DNA of 21,820 nt, taken from IMG/VR virus record IMGVR_UViG_3300032213_001053, positions 1-21,820 of that record, one strand, 5' to 3'. How positions within the stretch are numbered: position 1 is the stretch's first letter; each line of letters starts with the position of its first letter. The notes under the pieces are model-generated. The model did no database searches and was not told the origin of the DNA. It was given only the letters and a program-made list of their open reading frames with translations. The stretch comes from a virus. Below, one piece after another: positions 1,736 to 19,434 of this stretch. Made by a program: the position numbers and the translations under genes.

Positions 1736-2668
1736 ATGAGCAAAGTTATTGGTATTGATTTGGGTACCACAAATAGCTGTGTGGCTATTGTAGAAAATGG
1801 TACAACTAAAGTTATAGAAAATAGTGAAGGAGCACGAACTACCCCTAGTATCGTAGCTTACACTTCTGAAGAAGTTTTAGTAGGTGCAACTGCTAAACGA
1901 CAAGCAATCACAAACCCTAAAAATACAATCTACGCAGCCAAGCGTTTGATCGGAAGAAAATTTAAAGAAGACGCGGTTCAAAAGGACATTGACCTAATGC
2001 CCTATAAAATTATTGAATCAAGTAACGGTGATGCTTGGGTTCATGCACAAGACAAAGAATTGGCACCCCCGCAAATTTCAGCAGAAGTTTTGCGTAAAAT
2101 GAAGAAAACGGCTGAAGATTACTTAGGTGAAGAAGTAAGTAAAGCAGTTATTACTGTACCTGCTTATTTCAACGACAGCCAGCGACAAGCAACAAAAGAT
2201 GCAGGTAGAATTGCAGGACTAGAAGTTCTACGAATTATCAATGAACCAACTGCTGCGGCTCTTGCATATGGTGTTGACAAAGCTGACAAAACTGATCGCA
2301 AGATTGCAGTGTATGATCTAGGTGGCGGTACATTTGATGTTTCTATCATTGAAATTGCTAATGTCGATGGTGAAAAACAAATTGAAGTATTGTCAACAAA
2401 CGGTGATACTTTTCTAGGTGGTGAAGACTTTGACCAGCGCATCATGGATTACTTAGTTGAAGAATTCTTAAAAGATTCTGGAATCGACTTGACTAAAGAT
2501 GTGTTAGCATTGCAACGATTGAAAGATGCAGCAGAAAAAGCAAAAATTGAATTGTCTAGCTCACAACAAACTGATGTAAACTTACCATACATTACAGCAG
2601 ATAGTTCCGGTCCTAAGCATATGAATGTTAAATTGACCCGCGCAAAACTAGAAAGTTTAGTTGATTAA
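1736..2668 (+). CDS. dnaK: DnaK (Hsp70) N-terminal part, ended by in-frame TAA
   Basis: The Hsp70 ATPase domain up to residue 310. Phosphate-1 motif GIDLGTTNS is at residues 6-14, [18 protein letters not shown] near 145-162, [12 protein letters not shown] at 168-179 and the phosphate-2 motif [11 protein letters not shown] at 193-203. The start ATG is set by a strong AAAGGAG site nine bases upstream and matches the family N-terminus ([14 protein letters not shown]). The reading frame stops at TAA inside the stretch that reads LESLVxxLIxR in Burkholderiales-like DnaK, and the same frame then continues into the C-terminal part. Alone this piece lacks the rest of subdomain IIB, including the adenosine-binding VGGxTRMP loop, so it should not be a working ATPase. 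The sequence is close to my memory of betaproteobacterial DnaK, which suggests capture from a host. No dnaJ or grpE is seen nearby. It could be a pseudogene, a sequencing or assembly error, or a read-through gene. Confidence 0.85.
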
Positions 2669-2704
2669 CTAATTCAACGAAGCACTAAGCCTTGTGAAGT
2701 TGCT

Positions 2705-3616
2705 ATGAAGGATGCAGGTGTTAGTGCAAGTGACATTGACGAAGTTATCTTAGTTGGTGGACAAACTCGTATGCCTAAGGTGCAAGAAGTAGTAGAGAAA
2801 TTATTCGGTAAGACACCTCGCAGAGATGTGAACCCAGATGAAGCAGTTGCTGCTGGCGCCGCAATTCAAGGTTCAGTTTTAGCTGGTGATCGCACAGATG
2901 TATTATTGCTTGATGTTACACCATTAAGTTTGGGCATTGAAACAATGGGCGGTGTGTTTACTAAATTGATTAAGAAAAACACAACAATTCCAACTAAAGC
3001 AAGTCAGACATTTAGCACAGCCGAAGATAATCAACCTGCAGTTGATATTAAAGTTGCTCAAGGTGAGCGTGAGTTGTTTAAATATAACAAGGCACTAGGC
3101 GAATTTAAGTTAGATGGAATTGCACCTGCACCCCGTGGAATGCCACAAATTGAAGTAACATTTGATATTGACGCAAATGGTATTATGAAAATCAGTGCAA
3201 AAGACAAAGGTACTGGTAAAGAAAACAAAATCACTATCAAGTCTAACTCTGGATTGTCTGAAGCTGAAATTCAACAAATGGTTAAAGAAGCTGAAGAAAA
3301 TCAAGAAGCCGACAAAAAATTAGTTGAGTTGATTCAAACTAAAAACAATGCTGAAGGTACTTTAAATAGTTTTAAGAAAGACTTTGATCAATATAAAGAT
3401 CAAATTACCGAAGATGAAAAAAATCAAGCTCAACAAGCACTTGATAATTTAGAAAAATCTTTAACAGGTGATGATGTTGAAGCTATCAATACATCAGTAA
3501 CAGAATTATATAAAGCTATCGGTCCTATAACTGGGAAAAAACAAGAAGCTGAACAAAAGGCTTCAGCTAAATCCGATGATAATATAGTTGACGCTGAAGT
3601 TACTGAAGCTAACTAA
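2705..3616 (+). CDS. dnaK: DnaK (Hsp70) C-terminal part, same frame after TAA
   Basis: This continues the dnaK frame after the stop at 2666-2668. The first ATG after the stop is 2705, but twelve codons between them still encode DnaK-like sequence (LIQRS...EVA), showing that one gene was interrupted. It contains the adenosine motif VGGQTRMP at residues 18-24, [14 protein letters not shown] near 40-53, the interdomain linker VLLLDVTP at 66-73, the substrate-binding beta-sandwich (to about 190; [21 protein letters not shown] is typical), the helical lid, and the usual acidic end (DDNIVDAEV). Joined, the two parts give about 626 residues, normal for DnaK (E. coli 638). Upstream of 2705 there is only a weak ribosome site (GTGAAG), so independent translation as a deliberate split protein is possible but unconvincing. 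A strong terminator follows at once, so dnaK is probably its own transcription unit. Confidence 0.8.
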
Positions 3617-9999: not shown

Positions 10000-10211
10000 T
10001 AGTTATTATTGTACCAAATTTAGACAGTAATGAGATTAGTCAATTAGTTAGAGAACTAAAAAGCCAAGGGTATATTGTGGGCAATGACTTTGACTTTGAA
10101 TTTTCTGCTGGTAGATATGATTATGATACTAGAGAAAGTATCCCACGGCAAACTAAGTTTACATTTTATAATGAAGCAATGGCTAGCTATTTTAGTTTAA
10201 AATATCTTTAA
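9996..10211 (+). CDS. Conserved hypothetical protein with TTG start, 71 aa
   Basis: A 71-residue protein with no in-frame ATG before its conserved core, so it appears to start at TTG in a TTGA overlap with the epimerase. It opens IVIIVPNLDSNEISQLVREL, an alpha/beta start, and contains a notable acidic-aromatic stretch DFDFEFSAGRYDYDTRESIP, ending PRQTKFTFYNEAMASYFSLKY. I recall similar small proteins in T4-like phages but no function. Its stop overlaps by four bases the stop of the converging minus-strand gene, with no visible terminator between them. Confidence 0.65.
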   Translation: MIVIIVPNLDSNEISQLVRELKSQGYIVGNDFDFEFSAGRYDYDTRESIPRQTKFTFYNEAMASYFSLKYL

Positions 10212-13200
10212 TGCTTTAATAATAGTGTACTTAATACGCCACTACTCTTAGCAGTAATATCAGGTTCACCAGGTGTAATAATTACATTATATTTAATAGG
10301 CGTTTCTTTTTTACCACCTTGAGTTTTTTGATCCCACTCAGTATAGCTTAAAATACTGCTAGGAGATATGCCGTATTCTTTTGCTATTCTTTGTTTTAGT
10401 TCAGGTAACTTGTCAGGTATAACTTGCCATTGGCCTTCTGCACCCTTAACTAAGTTCTTCTTTTCGTCCTTAACTAACAAATCATAGAATAAATTACTTG
10501 GAACAATACGACTGTTCTTTGTTCTTTCTAAGTTTGGATCAGCAGCTTTAACTTGTTTCTCTTGTGAAGTATGAGCACCTTCACTCCAGTTAATCATAAA
10601 GTTGTCAGGTTTTTGACCTAATGCAACACCAGCTATTTTCGTATAAGCATAGAACTGAACATTGGGTAATTCATTTGCTAACTTGAACGCCAAGCCTGCA
10701 TATTCAGGGCTAAAGAAATCTCCTGCGTCATGCCAACGAATACTTACTTTGTATCCACCCTTCTTACCTTTTAGTTCTTCTTTTTCAATTTCAGATTTTA
10801 ATTGACTAAAGAAACCATCTGGATTATTTAATAGATATGTAAGAATACGGCCATCACTTAACCATGGACCTTGAAACTGTATCTTACCACCCTTCATTGC
10901 AAAACAATCTACTTTACAACTACCAGCTCCTGGACATGTGTTTACTATAATAATCTCATTTGTATTTTCATCTAGTGCTATTCCAGTCAATGCTGCAAAA
11001 CCAATATTAAAGAATTGTTCTTGCTCACCGTCACTGTGCTTCATTTTTTCGTTTTTCTTCAATAAAGCTTTTGGTCTTTCTTTCAATGCGGCTTTGATAG
11101 CATCAGTATTGTATTTTTTACCAGATTCATCATAGTATCCCAACACACTACTACGGTGAATATAGGGCATCTTATATTTGTCTGTTTTTTGTTTTTCTTG
11201 ATTGCGAATACGATCCAAATATGCTTCTAGTTCATCACCCTTTAGATCACGGGTTTGCGCTGGAAGTTTGGTTGCCTCCGCCACACCTTCCTCGTTGGTT
11301 TTCTTTTTACAACTTCCGGGAGCACCAGCAGGAACACCACGAACTCTTGTGTACCCTGGCCAACACTTTAACTCATCTAGTTGCTCTTCTGCCATTGCTG
11401 GTTTTACTGCTGGTTGTTTGAATGTAGTACTCACACTGGCGTAACCAGTTGGACCTCTACTAGAGTTCGCAGATTTTGCAACTGCCGGTTTAGCATACTT
11501 TTCCATACCAGGCATCTTCATTACATTACTAGCATTAAAACCTTGAGGTGTTGTGGACGCGGCTGCTTTAGCTACAGGTGCTACTTGAGGTATAGTTGTT
11601 TGTTGAGCAGGAACTGCTATTTTATTTGCAGGTGCTGCCACTGGAGCCGATGCAGGAGTTGCCTGTTGTGTACGTTTGGCTGATTGAGGCATAGCTCCGC
11701 CGCCTGGTTCGCCGGCGAATGGTATCTTCATTGAACCATATACTTGTTTAATAGTGGCAGATGGTATACCTGCTTTTTGAATGATACTAGCAACATCTAA
11801 ACTATCCATTGGGCTACCGGCTTTTTTCCATGCTTGTAATAGTTTATCAGCAGTAACTTTAGTTGTTAAGTTAGTACCTTTAGTTTTAGCCCAGTTCACT
11901 GCTTTTTCGGCAGCGCCTTTAATGGTGTCCATGATACCTTCGTCAAGTTTGCGCTGACGCTCAACAATTTTACCAATCATTAAATAGAGTTGAGATTCTG
12001 ATAAGTTGATGGATTCGTTTACTCCTGCAGATTTTTTCATAACATCCAATATTTGCTGACCTGTGTAGATACCTGCTTTTCGCATACTAGGATCAGATGC
12101 TATTGATTGCACCAAGTTGCCTGCTTTATCATAAACAAAAACGTTCATGCCTTTAGGAACATAATCGTAAGTGTTCATATCAAAGTTTTTAACAGCCCAA
12201 TTAGCTAATCTCTGAACGCCAGGATTTTCTGCAGCCGAGACAAAAGATCCGCCCATGTCCACTGATTGACCAGCACCTTGACCAGCAGTAGGTGTCATGA
12301 TGTCAGGTTTATATGTCATACTGGGATCAGCTTTTGCTGCCATTTGTCCTTTGACCAAATCACCAACTTTGCTTGCACCATAAGCCATTGCGCCAGTCTT
12401 AGCACCAGCGTATGCGGCACTACTAAATTTCTCGCCTTGCAACAACTTATCTACTAATTTAAATAAGCCTAATGCGGCTGCACCCCCTAAGCCAGCACCT
12501 GAGATGCCTGCGGCAGCAATCAATGCTGAATAAATCAAACTCTGTGCTACTGGATGTTTTTTAGCAAAATCACGATACTTCTGAACATACTTCATTACAC
12601 CTTGATCGCCACCAGTTGCTTGTTTCAACTGTTCAGCAGCCTTGTCATACATAGCATCAACACCTTTAATAGGGCCGCTATTCTGAACTTTAGTCTTTAA
12701 GTTTTCCCATGCTTTGTTAACTGCACTTACCGCATCTTTGCCTCTACCAAGCATGGTGCGATTACCGCCAGCGGCAGTAGCACCTTGTTCTACTTGTTGA
12801 AAGATTTGATTAATTTGGTCAGCAGTTAGTTGTGCTTCCATCAACTTGCGACCAGCATTTTCCCATAACTTTTGTGCAATCAACGCTTCAGTGATTATTG
12901 TTTTATTATTGTGATAGCCTTCCGCCACACCTTGCTTATTATGACTCAAAATATTATTTTTAGGAACGCGATACTTTGCCACAGTCTTTTCAGTGTTTCT
13001 TGGTGTTGGGTCAATTGATTTAACAATAAGATGACCGTCTTTCCACCCAACCACAGTGCCTTCAATTTCAGGATGATGATTACTATGATACCAAGTAATC
13101 TTGTCACCTGGTTCATAACCTTCCGCCATGCCTTGGCCTAATCGAGTCAAATCACGAACAAGAACACCACGATACACTTTACCGTTCCTATCCTCAACCT

Positions 13201-13504
13201 CACAGGTCTGTCCGTTTGGGTGAATTGAATTCACTATTACTGGGATACCATCATACTTGACTTTCTCACCAGCTGCTAATCGCTTCATAGTAACGCCGCC
13301 GATATCTACTTTAGAATCTCCAGCAAATCGACCTTGTGGTCCCCAGATATGATCATCATTGCCTTCTGCCACATCTTTTTCTGGTCCAGGTTCTTCGCCT
13401 GCTGCACTCTTAGCAACGAATTGCTGAGGTGTCATAATCTGTATTCCGGATACTGCACCGGGTAGTTTTGGCTCTGTGCCTTCTAATAAATGCTTGATTT
13501 TCAT
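10208..13504 (-). CDS. Mosaic capsid-targeted protein with GP88-like C-domain
   Basis: A 1098-residue protein; ATG 13504 is chosen for its CGGA site and because MKIKHLLEG looks like the T4 capsid-targeting sequence cut after (I/L)xE by the prohead protease. More (hydrophobic)xE sites follow: VAE 45-47, MAE 126-128, VAE 193-195, ITE 204-206, LME 221-223, LDE 520-522, MAE 704-706, LDE 709-711, VAE 741-743. Between them lie different modules: SH3/KOW-like beta segments (64-118, 131-180), helical region with Gly/Ala hydrophobic stretch (318-348), second helical module (520-595), Ala/Pro/Gln linker (600-700), and a Cys module (CWPGY...GSCKKK, 714-734). From about 746 on, CPGAGSCKVDCFA (cysteines 857, 863, 867), RWHDAGDF (H925, D929) and a later NVQFYAYTK resemble the mycobacteriophage GP88 family. 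Packaging and cleavage are inference. Base composition is somewhat richer in GC than its neighbours. Confidence 0.75.
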   Translation of the reverse strand: MKIKHLLEGTEPKLPGAVSGIQIMTPQQFVAKSAAGEEPGPEKDVAEGNDDHIWGPQGRFAGDSKVDIGGVTMKRLAAGEKVKYDGIPVIVNSIHPNGQTCEVEDRNGKVYRGVLVRDLTRLGQGMAEGYEPGDKITWYHSNHHPEIEGTVVGWKDGHLIVKSIDPTPRNTEKTVAKYRVPKNNILSHNKQGVAEGYHNNKTIITEALIAQKLWENAGRKLMEAQLTADQINQIFQQVEQGATAAGGNRTMLGRGKDAVSAVNKAWENLKTKVQNSGPIKGVDAMYDKAAEQLKQATGGDQGVMKYVQKYRDFAKKHPVAQSLIYSALIAAAGISGAGLGGAAALGLFKLVDKLLQGEKFSSAAYAGAKTGAMAYGASKVGDLVKGQMAAKADPSMTYKPDIMTPTAGQGAGQSVDMGGSFVSAAENPGVQRLANWAVKNFDMNTYDYVPKGMNVFVYDKAGNLVQSIASDPSMRKAGIYTGQQILDVMKKSAGVNESINLSESQLYLMIGKIVERQRKLDEGIMDTIKGAAEKAVNWAKTKGTNLTTKVTADKLLQAWKKAGSPMDSLDVASIIQKAGIPSATIKQVYGSMKIPFAGEPGGGAMPQSAKRTQQATPASAPVAAPANKIAVPAQQTTIPQVAPVAKAAASTTPQGFNASNVMKMPGMEKYAKPAVAKSANSSRGPTGYASVSTTFKQPAVKPAMAEEQLDELKCWPGYTRVRGVPAGAPGSCKKKTNEEGVAEATKLPAQTRDLKGDELEAYLDRIRNQEKQKTDKYKMPYIHRSSVLGYYDESGKKYNTDAIKAALKERPKALLKKNEKMKHSDGEQEQFFNIGFAALTGIALDENTNEIIIVNTCPGAGSCKVDCFAMKGGKIQFQGPWLSDGRILTYLLNNPDGFFSQLKSEIEKEELKGKKGGYKVSIRWHDAGDFFSPEYAGLAFKLANELPNVQFYAYTKIAGVALGQKPDNFMINWSEGAHTSQEKQVKAADPNLERTKNSRIVPSNLFYDLLVKDEKKNLVKGAEGQWQVIPDKLPELKQRIAKEYGISPSSILSYTEWDQKTQGGKKETPIKYNVIITPGEPDITAKSSGVLSTLLLKH
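11275..11290 (-). repeat. VAE-encoding short repeat, copy near the GP88-like domain
   Basis: CCTCCGCCACACCTTC on the plus strand, coding EGVAEA on the minus strand. Differs at few positions from copies at 12918-12934 and 13119-13135. It marks the seam before the GP88-like domain. Confidence 0.45.
12918..12934 (-). repeat. VAE-encoding short repeat
   Basis: CCTTCCGCCACACCTTG (plus strand) encodes QGVAEG on the minus strand, at the border between an SH3/KOW-like segment and the helical module. Fifteen of seventeen bases match the copy at 13119-13135. Confidence 0.5.
13119..13135 (-). repeat. MAE-encoding short repeat
   Basis: CCTTCCGCCATGCCTTG (plus strand) encodes QGMAEG, located between the two SH3/KOW-like segments. 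Near-identical DNA to the copy at 12918, suggesting shared ancestry of module borders or strong constraint on the peptide. Confidence 0.5.
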
Positions 13505-13557: not shown

Positions 13558-13565
13558 TATTTATC
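13558..13565 (-). promoter_or_regulatory. Candidate late promoter for the mosaic protein gene (7/8)
   Basis: Read on the minus strand, GATAAATA followed by TAG matches T4 late TATAAATA at seven of eight positions, 53 bases before ATG 13504. Late expression would suit a head-packaged protein. The downstream bases TATAG are shared with the site at 3900. Confidence 0.35.
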
Positions 13566-13568
13566 ACT

Positions 13569-14612
13569 ATGGACTTTTATATGCATTCTTTCGACATGAC
13601 TGTTAAGCGTATTGGCTTTGCCTGCAAATGGGCAGAAATCAATAAAAAAGGTGAAATCGCTAGTGCCGAGGGTTTAAACACTGGCGGCACTACCCTAGCA
13701 TGGGCTAATCGCAACAATCGTTCTATAGTTGAGAACAAAATCATTGATGTTGCTAAGACCAACATTATGAATACTCACAATCTTATTAAAAAGGTTGCTA
13801 CACTTCCCCGTGAATTGCGTATGTTGCGTATCACTAGTGATATGCTTAGTTTCTATACCCATGAAGATTATCGTGACTTTTGGAAGTCTACTGATGTTCA
13901 AAACAAACTAGCACATTGGTTCGCTCCTCTAGGTGAAACTGCACGACAAAATGATGTTCGTCTAAGTTTTCATCCTGACCAATTTGTAGTTCTTGCAAGT
14001 GATCGTCCTGAGGTAGTAAATAAGAGTATAGAGGAGTTTGAATATCATGTTGACATGGCCCGTTGGATGGGGTTCGGTAAACAATTTCAGGACATTAAAA
14101 TCAATGTCCACATCTCGGGTCGAGCCGGTCCCGAAGGTATTCGATCTGCCTACAAAAGACTTACCCCCGAAGCAAGAAACACACTCACAATCGAAAACGA
14201 GGAAATGACACATGATTTACACACAGTTCTTGAAATTGCAGACTTGGTTCCAATCGTTATGGACATACATCACCATTGGGTCCATTGTGGAGAATACATT
14301 GAACCTACTGACGACCGTGTTAAAAAGGTTATTGATAGTTGGCGTGGTATTCGTCCTACTATGCATTACAGTGTATCTAGGGAAGATTGCCTTGTTGGCC
14401 ACGCCCGTGACCAGCGTCCCGCCCGTGATGCGTTAATGGAGAGTGGACACAATAGGCAAAAACTTCGTGCCCATAGTGACTACTACTGGAACGATGCAGT
14501 CAACGATTGGGCATTGACATTCAATGATAACTTTGATATTATGTGTGAAAGCAAAGCTAAGAACCTTGCAAGTATGAAACTTTACGAGAAAAAATATGGG
14601 ACTATTCGATAA
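13569..14612 (+). CDS. uvdE: UV-damage endonuclease (UvdE/UvsE family)
   Basis: This TIM-barrel endonuclease nicks DNA directly 5' to cyclobutane dimers and 6-4 photoproducts. The 347-residue length and motifs fit: IGFACKW at 15-21, LRITSD at 86-91, LSFHPDQFV at 132-140, INVHISGR at 178-185, LTIENEE at 206-212, VMDIHHHWVHCGEYIEP at 230-246, MHYSVSRE at 265-272 and AHSDYYW at 301-307. Probable metal ligands include H135, H181, E209, D232 and H302. No clear ribosome site precedes ATG 13569, ATG 13581 or ATG 13596, so the start is uncertain and the message may be nearly leaderless. It is divergent from the mosaic protein gene and overlaps the next gene by 17 bases. T4 itself uses the unrelated DenV, so this is a different repair choice, useful for a phage exposed to sunlight. 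Confidence 0.93.
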   Translation: MDFYMHSFDMTVKRIGFACKWAEINKKGEIASAEGLNTGGTTLAWANRNNRSIVENKIIDVAKTNIMNTHNLIKKVATLPRELRMLRITSDMLSFYTHEDYRDFWKSTDVQNKLAHWFAPLGETARQNDVRLSFHPDQFVVLASDRPEVVNKSIEEFEYHVDMARWMGFGKQFQDIKINVHISGRAGPEGIRSAYKRLTPEARNTLTIENEEMTHDLHTVLEIADLVPIVMDIHHHWVHCGEYIEPTDDRVKKVIDSWRGIRPTMHYSVSREDCLVGHARDQRPARDALMESGHNRQKLRAHSDYYWNDAVNDWALTFNDNFDIMCESKAKNLASMKLYEKKYGTIR

Positions 14613-19185: not shown

Positions 19186-19434
19186 ATGAAAACTATCGCT
19201 ACTCTAATCGCTACTTTGGTGGCAACAAGTGTCTTTGCTGCTGAACCAGCTAAGAAAGAAGAAAAGAAAGCTGCACCTGCTGTGGCTGCTGCTCCAGCTG
19301 CTCCTGCAGCAAAAGCTGAAGAAAAGAAGGACATGAAGCTACCTAAGAAAGAAGAAAAGAAGGCTGATGCTAAGCCAGCTGCTGCTCCCGCAGCTCCTGC
19401 TGCTGCACCAGCTACTTCTGCACCTAAGAAGTAA
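19186..19434 (+). CDS. Exported Ala/Lys/Pro-rich peptide, 82 aa
   Basis: A clear signal peptide: MKTIATLIATLVATSVFA, ending AxA-like before AEPAKK. The mature 64 residues are nearly all Ala, Lys, Glu and Pro in repeats (KKEEKKA twice, APAAPAA-like runs), so it is disordered and probably periplasmic. From memory, Burkholderiales genomes carry many such small exported Ala/Lys/Pro proteins, so it is likely host-derived. AAAAAAGGAA gives a strong ribosome site seven bases upstream. The DNA contains two identical 18-base units (19251-19268 and 19344-19361, TAAGAAAGAAGAAAAGAA). It stands alone between an upstream inverted repeat and a downstream stable hairpin, so it is probably separately transcribed. 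Possible roles: cell-envelope change or superinfection exclusion; both guesses. Confidence 0.75.
   Translation: MKTIATLIATLVATSVFAAEPAKKEEKKAAPAVAAAPAAPAAKAEEKKDMKLPKKEEKKADAKPAAAPAAPAAAPATSAPKK

Follow-up and report, generated by a model that had tools for sequence, protein, structure and literature searches.

The internal head proteins of T4 (IPI, IPII, IPIII and Alt) share an N-terminal leader ending in hydrophobic-x-E, behind which small and diverse payloads are carried; the prohead protease gp21 cuts with L/I-x-E specificity, and short leaders of this kind suffice for packaging (PMC9026906). Across T-even phages the payload genes vary and the leader is kept (PMC9026906, PMC3012670, PMC12373910). 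In phiKZ and SPN3US, which also have ejected proteins, head proteins are cut at several x-E positions each by a gp21-like protease. A further class, the polyvalent proteins, comprises large multi-domain phage proteins presumed to be packaged and injected, whose modules include GNAT and others of that sort (Iyer et al., 2017; PMC5512222). The gene considered here lies in a viral stretch of 21,820 nt (IMG/VR record IMGVR_UViG_3300032213_001053, positions 1 to 21,820; hereafter the window) and encodes a mosaic protein of 1098 residues. This product is probably a head-internal polyprotein of a jumbo T4-like phage, directed into the prohead by a capsid-targeting sequence (CTS), cut by a gp21-type protease and delivered with the DNA, its modules being shuffled through a recurrent junction. 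Polyproteins are known from RNA viruses; for a tailed phage it would be unusual to deliver cargo in this form and to have its own head protease do the cutting.

The protein begins MKIKHLLEG, as the original prediction had read it; its gene, for which no strand had been given there, runs from an ATG at 13504 to a stop at 10208-10210 on the minus strand. With a cut at the arrow, MKIKHLLE↓G agrees with the (L/I)xE leader of the T4 internal proteins. The accompanying claim of at least nine further (V/M/L/I)xE sites stands in part. The bare motif [LIVM]xE is not enriched in the window protein (17 versus 12.9 expected, P=0.13), whereas [LIVMF]xE[GAS] occurs 10 times against 3.8 expected (P=0.003, 5000 composition-preserving shuffles), after residues 8, 47, 128, 195, 206, 223, 497, 503, 522 and 743. 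The narrower motifs [LIVM][ASTD]E[GA] and G[VIM]AE[GAS] occur six times (0.7 expected; none of the 5000 shuffles as high) and three times (0.02 expected by shuffling), respectively. The signal thus resides in sites with a small residue after the Glu. MAE is indeed present at residue 706, also on the predicted list, but as the weaker form MAE↓E. Sites had further been placed at module borders, which homology bears out for 47, 128, 195 and 743; 206 and 223 are located within a homologous block.

A scan of viral contigs with the window protein yielded 59 loci. Orthologs keep the first ~40 residues and a C-terminal domain of the GP88 family, the middle is replaced, and lengths range from about 390 to 1098 aa. 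The N-terminal site reads L[LMFY]E↓G in 20 of the 20 orthologs having this leader, and the border before GP88 reads [VILM]xE↓A in all 27 orthologs (VDE in nine, VAE in seven, IDE in three, others in the remainder). The four residues preceding this second site are unrelated among orthologs, and all of the sequence upstream varies. Nothing else indicates as clearly that selection acts on a cut site and not on a linker. The features of the gene are as follows.

10208..13504 (-): whole polyprotein gene, 1098 aa plus stop
13558..13565 (-): late-promoter-like motif GATAAATA, 54-61 nt upstream of the ATG
13481..13504 (-): capsid-targeting-like leader MKIKHLLE, residues 1-8, conserved in orthologs and resembling the T4 CTS (PMC9026906)
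13478..13489 (-): candidate site LLE↓G after residue 8
13364..13480 (-): module 9-47, GTEPKLPGAVSGIQIMTPQQFVAKS...DVAE, first in all orthologs and presumably part of the head-entry leader
13361..13372 (-): candidate site VAE↓G after residue 47, where DNA homology to several relatives stops (47.3-48.7)
13121..13363 (-): module 48-128, small beta-barrel (SH3/Tudor-like), recurring in proteins of L277, L038, L251 and L023
13118..13135 (-): junction element CAAGGCATGGCGGAAGGT, QGMAE↓G after residue 128
12920..13120 (-): cassette 129-195, small beta-rich module, with 89% identical DNA in the otherwise unrelated L223 protein
12917..12934 (-): junction element CAAGGTGTGGCGGAAGGC, QGVAE↓G after residue 195
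11939..12919 (-): module 196-522, helical; its segment at about 310-360 is hydrophobic and Gly/Ala-rich
12884..12895 (-): ITE↓A after residue 206, within a homologous block; weaker candidate
12833..12844 (-): LME↓A after residue 223, within a homologous block; weaker candidate
12011..12022 (-): candidate site VNE↓S after residue 497; homologous DNA blocks begin at about 492-505
11993..12004 (-): candidate site LSE↓S after residue 503
11936..11947 (-): candidate site LDE↓G after residue 522
11276..11938 (-): module or modules 523-743, helical and then a Pro/Ala-rich disordered part
11273..11290 (-): junction element GAAGGTGTGGCGGAGGCA, EGVAE↓A after residue 743, the border invariant in orthologs
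10211..11275 (-): C-terminal GP88-family domain, residues 744-1098 (PF17338 match), with no candidate site inside it

No capsid or prohead-protease gene is present in the 21.8-kb window contig; capsid, scaffold and protease were therefore examined in 13 relatives, comprising 12 metagenomic records and the cultured Vibrio phage 2.275.O. A gp21-family protease (S77) accompanies the gp23-type major capsid protein (MCP) in all 12 large relatives that carry an MCP gene, six of them being relatives of the window protein and six having been located by means of the junction element. In the 13 relatives L-x-E↓S/A/N closes the MCP propeptide, at the position where gp23 is matured, and the protease of most relatives has VVE↓S or a similar sequence near its start. 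Hydrophobic-x-E↓small is conserved at about 15 sites of the scaffold, which is encoded between protease and MCP; VAE↓G is among these sites. Vibrio phage 2.275.O agrees with the metagenomic relatives on this consensus. A different capsid and scaffold consensus, which would have spoken against the original prediction, was thus not found, and Val at the first position, there considered looser than the T4 rule, is normal in this clade.

Late expression is suggested by the motif GATAAATA ahead of the gene. In six relatives the regions ahead of genes are 6- to 17-fold enriched in the 7-mer ATAAATA, a pattern expected of T4-type late promoters, and the ortholog in G007 has GATAAATAGT at -64. The strict T4 promoter TATAAATA was also considered and is absent; the broader ATAAATA fits the clade. 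Of 73 complete junction-bearing proteins, 34 start with a CTS-like sequence, compared with 350 of 3149 others, a 7-fold enrichment. Together with the conserved ortholog sites and the shared head consensus, these observations support the idea of a packaged and cut polyprotein. In the proposed sequence of events, the polyprotein would be made late, its T4-type leader MKIKHLLE would draw it into the prohead core, and the gp21-type protease would cut after hydrophobic-x-Glu, both behind the leader and at several of the module borders. The small modules so released and the GP88 domain would remain with the DNA and enter the host together. In its working the protein would then correspond to a T4 internal protein, although produced as a polyprotein, and its modules would likely serve in counter-defence or host takeover. 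The difference from T4, where each internal protein has one gene and one leader, lies in the many modules per chain, the site at each border and the conserved border DNA.

Modular construction extends far beyond the orthologs. At least one junction is found in 135 proteins, and other proteins ending modules with xAEG, which the original prediction had suggested looking for, exist in large numbers. Some of them (L042:86+, L251, L228 and L244) contain up to eight modules separated by near-identical K(Q/E)GVAE↓G junctions. Internal modules (n=116) have a median length of 82 aa (interquartile range 63-139), near the 76 residues of mature T4 IPI (PMC3012670). Module families recur beside different neighbours: block 190-720 of the window protein is found with other ends in L007, L018, L038, L042 and L043, module 196-522 has other neighbours in these five and in L136, and residues 706-739 form a separate small module also present in L181, L234 and L264. 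Pfam matches in the modules of related proteins include GNAT acetyltransferases, cytidine deaminase, LysM, GP88 and domains of unknown function (DUFs); most modules are unrecognised. One module matches PHROGs of head-and-packaging virion proteins, and profiles of anti-phage defence gave no match to the polyproteins. In L042:86-2299 (+), the module directly after QGVAE↓G scores as a twin-arginine (Tat) signal above the Pfam cut-off, and cutting there would put this Tat-like sequence near the new N-terminus. Several copies of a short unit, SKYPWLD(S/N)PRK...EKDVAEG, occur within one protein at L223:4139-6505 (-), perhaps through cassette duplication.

The main rival to the polyprotein proposal accepts the cutting and denies the payload: everything before GP88 would be one long propeptide, cleared by the protease at several points, and the released modules would leave the head. 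Precedents exist, since the propeptides of SPN3US receive several cuts and for the most part disappear (PMC10052503) and the pieces of T4 gp22 and gp67 are mostly removed after cutting (PMC9026906); GP88 is also C-terminal in every member of the window-protein family. Against this, the modules are folded or enzyme-like (beta barrel, GNAT, deaminase), occur in any position, also in proteins without GP88, and behave as cargo in their exchange. In phiKZ and SPN3US cutting yields propeptide pieces that belong to a single mature domain, whereas exchangeable modules lie between the cuts here; the SPN3US consensus is A-x-E (PMC10052503), whereas the first site position here is V, L, I or M and no domain is constant across families. 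Clearance of one long propeptide is unlikely, if still worth considering.

The borders of homologous DNA fall on the sites. The leftmost blocks homologous to the window gene end at residues 47.3-48.7 in several loci, and right-hand blocks begin at 190.3, 191.3 and 195.0, most GP88 blocks beginning at 735-743. The 67-aa cassette held in common with a different protein in L223 spans residues 126.3-196.3 (213 bp, 89% identity); DNA identity is about 0.83-0.93 inside it and 0.2-0.4 outside, with the shift within both junctions. Over 136 genes, 21% of breakpoints have a GVAE site no more than 21 nt away, versus 5% at random (4-fold), and 27% versus 8% fall at other [LIVMF]xE[GAS] sites (about 3.5-fold), with significance inflated by redundancy in both comparisons. 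Modules are thus exchanged exactly at the sites.

At the QGVAE↓G junctions the codons themselves form a conserved DNA element of ~20 bp, an aspect beyond the original prediction. In a sequence set chosen independently of the DNA motif, the junction Ala codon is GCG in 26 of 33 cases, compared with 6% in the remainder of these proteins (P=2e-25), and the Val codon is GTG in 21 of 29 against 14%; other [LIVMF]AE[GAS] sites have no such bias (GCG in 10 of 163). At least 120 contig stretches contain the 16-mer CAAGGTGTGGCGGAAG; each of the 112 copies that were read, all from other contigs, is in frame, and conservation drops to background beyond about -2 to +18, the inner 16 positions being fixed by the search. 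A 13-mer, GGTGTGGCGGAAG, has 38 matches in 14 jumbo records, compared with none for the reversed pattern. Two other roles were considered. A Chi-like hotspot was rejected, every occurrence being in frame inside junction-bearing genes, and an internal translation start at the junction was dropped on spacing, by reasoning only.

The plain reading of these data is that the element spread with cassettes through homologous recombination. Homologous recombination via the ~20-bp junction would swap modules with frame and cut site preserved, allowing the clade to assemble payload strings from exchangeable in-frame cassettes. It is conceivable, at a level of confidence just short of probable, that the element is both the crossover point for payload modules and an in-frame prohead-protease site, so that the joined modules are cut free and delivered. 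The strongest form of this idea adds a hypothetical dedicated nuclease or recombinase that would act at the element. Under a second rival, QGVAEG would mark cassette joints and nothing else, with the protein left intact and the likeness to a protease site coincidental. In favour of this rival, synonymous positions are conserved in QGVAEG and not in other sites. It sits poorly with the junctions other than QGVAEG, which retain hydrophobic-x-E↓small with free flanks (27 of 27 before GP88) and at which breakpoints are enriched too, and with the CTS-like N-termini and the consensus recurring in MCP and scaffold; recombination without cutting is accordingly quite improbable. The least credible explanation, close to dismissible, is an ordinary mosaic protein, structural or DNA-binding, in whose E-rich linkers a short motif happens to turn up. 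In its favour, low-complexity linkers are common and bare hydrophobic-x-E is unenriched. Against it, sites with a small P1' residue (the one after the cut) are enriched, are invariant in orthologs despite varying flanks and coincide with module ends.

Several points weigh against a packaged and cut polyprotein. The first site position is always L at MCP sites and mostly V at polyprotein junctions. Recombination history, rather than the protease, accounts for the DNA bias at QGVAEG, and the case for selection by the protease therefore depends on the ortholog columns. Some sites (206 and 223) fall within conserved blocks. The neighbours of the gene are metabolic and DNA-repair genes and not a head cluster, and the protease and capsid genes of the window phage itself lie outside the 21.8-kb fragment. 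Related proteins are not independent, which makes the P-values for CTS-like N-termini and breakpoints too small. Finally, packaging in the virion, cleavage, injection and the recombination route are all deduced from sequence.

Comparison with polyvalent proteins is close in one respect: the mosaic modules, with GNAT and deaminase in relatives, give a multi-domain protein with effector-like domains. Polyvalent proteins often, though not universally, carry their own metallopeptidase or assemblin-like domain, whereas cutting here would occur in trans, by the prohead protease and at short sites that recur along the chain; no peptidase family (MPTase, assemblin-like) is among the Pfam matches of the window protein or of 42 related proteins. 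Hypothetical proteins of cyanophages, encoded between gp15/gp16 and gp17 (e.g., PSSM2_123), share the modules KKDACY..., CWKGY... and a DUF5872-like one; they differ in lacking the QGVAEG DNA element in the four stretches read. In the Synechococcus and Prochlorococcus T4-like phages of L318, L319, L320 and L197, such proteins have several modules in common, with VEE↓G, VNE↓G and LME↓G at some module borders. In the open-access literature, no description of QGVAEG junctions or of such a head-protease polyprotein was found. If the proposal holds, a large stock of phage proteins that are likely injected can be located from sequence through these sites, and each piece between two QGVAE↓G junctions becomes a candidate counter-defence or takeover protein. 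The DNA-level junction additionally offers a testable route for the spread of payload modules among phages, and it could be put to use in laboratory phages as a modular tag for packaging.

The AlphaFold2 model of the window protein is of modest quality (mean predicted local distance difference test score, pLDDT, 55), with a beta barrel at 81-120 (pLDDT >90) and the GP88 domain both modelled confidently and a second barrel, at 135-180, partly so. Nine of the ten sites fall in segments with pLDDT<50, which cover 51% of the chain (P about 0.01). Fold searches of the PDB gave no match at E<=0.001 for the window models; the whole chain has weak matches to Tudor/SH3-like barrels, which fit module 48-128. 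The GP88 domain, modelled separately at pLDDT 76.5, found no convincing relative by fold, and a sequence search of solved structures found nothing. GP88 (PF17338) is the single Pfam domain of the window protein (residues 815-983, E=2.1e-22, 80.6 bits versus a curated cut-off of 24.4). The nearest match in a cultured phage, a hypothetical protein of Streptomyces phage Gilgamesh, is 29% identical and covers this domain only. In distant relatives the domain (10211-11275, -) retains an invariant C-x5-C-x3-C (CPGAGSCKxDC) and HDxGDFFSPxY, residues that suggest an enzyme.

Elsewhere in the window, a gene for the UV-endonuclease UvdE (13569-14612, +; PF03851, E=1.4e-37) diverges from the polyprotein gene across a common upstream region. 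A DnaK gene (1736-3616, +) is interrupted by one in-frame stop near 2666-2668, which is either a real mutation or a sequencing error; the copy in relative G004 is intact at 625 aa. Between 3967 and 7602 (+), GTP cyclohydrolase-, QueD-like and QueE-like genes, recognised by eye, suggest 7-deazaguanine-type chemistry, and Vibrio phage 2.275.O is annotated with a gene set resembling this group. A small protein encoded at 19186-19434 (+) has a signal-peptide-like start followed by an Ala/Lys/Pro-rich body.

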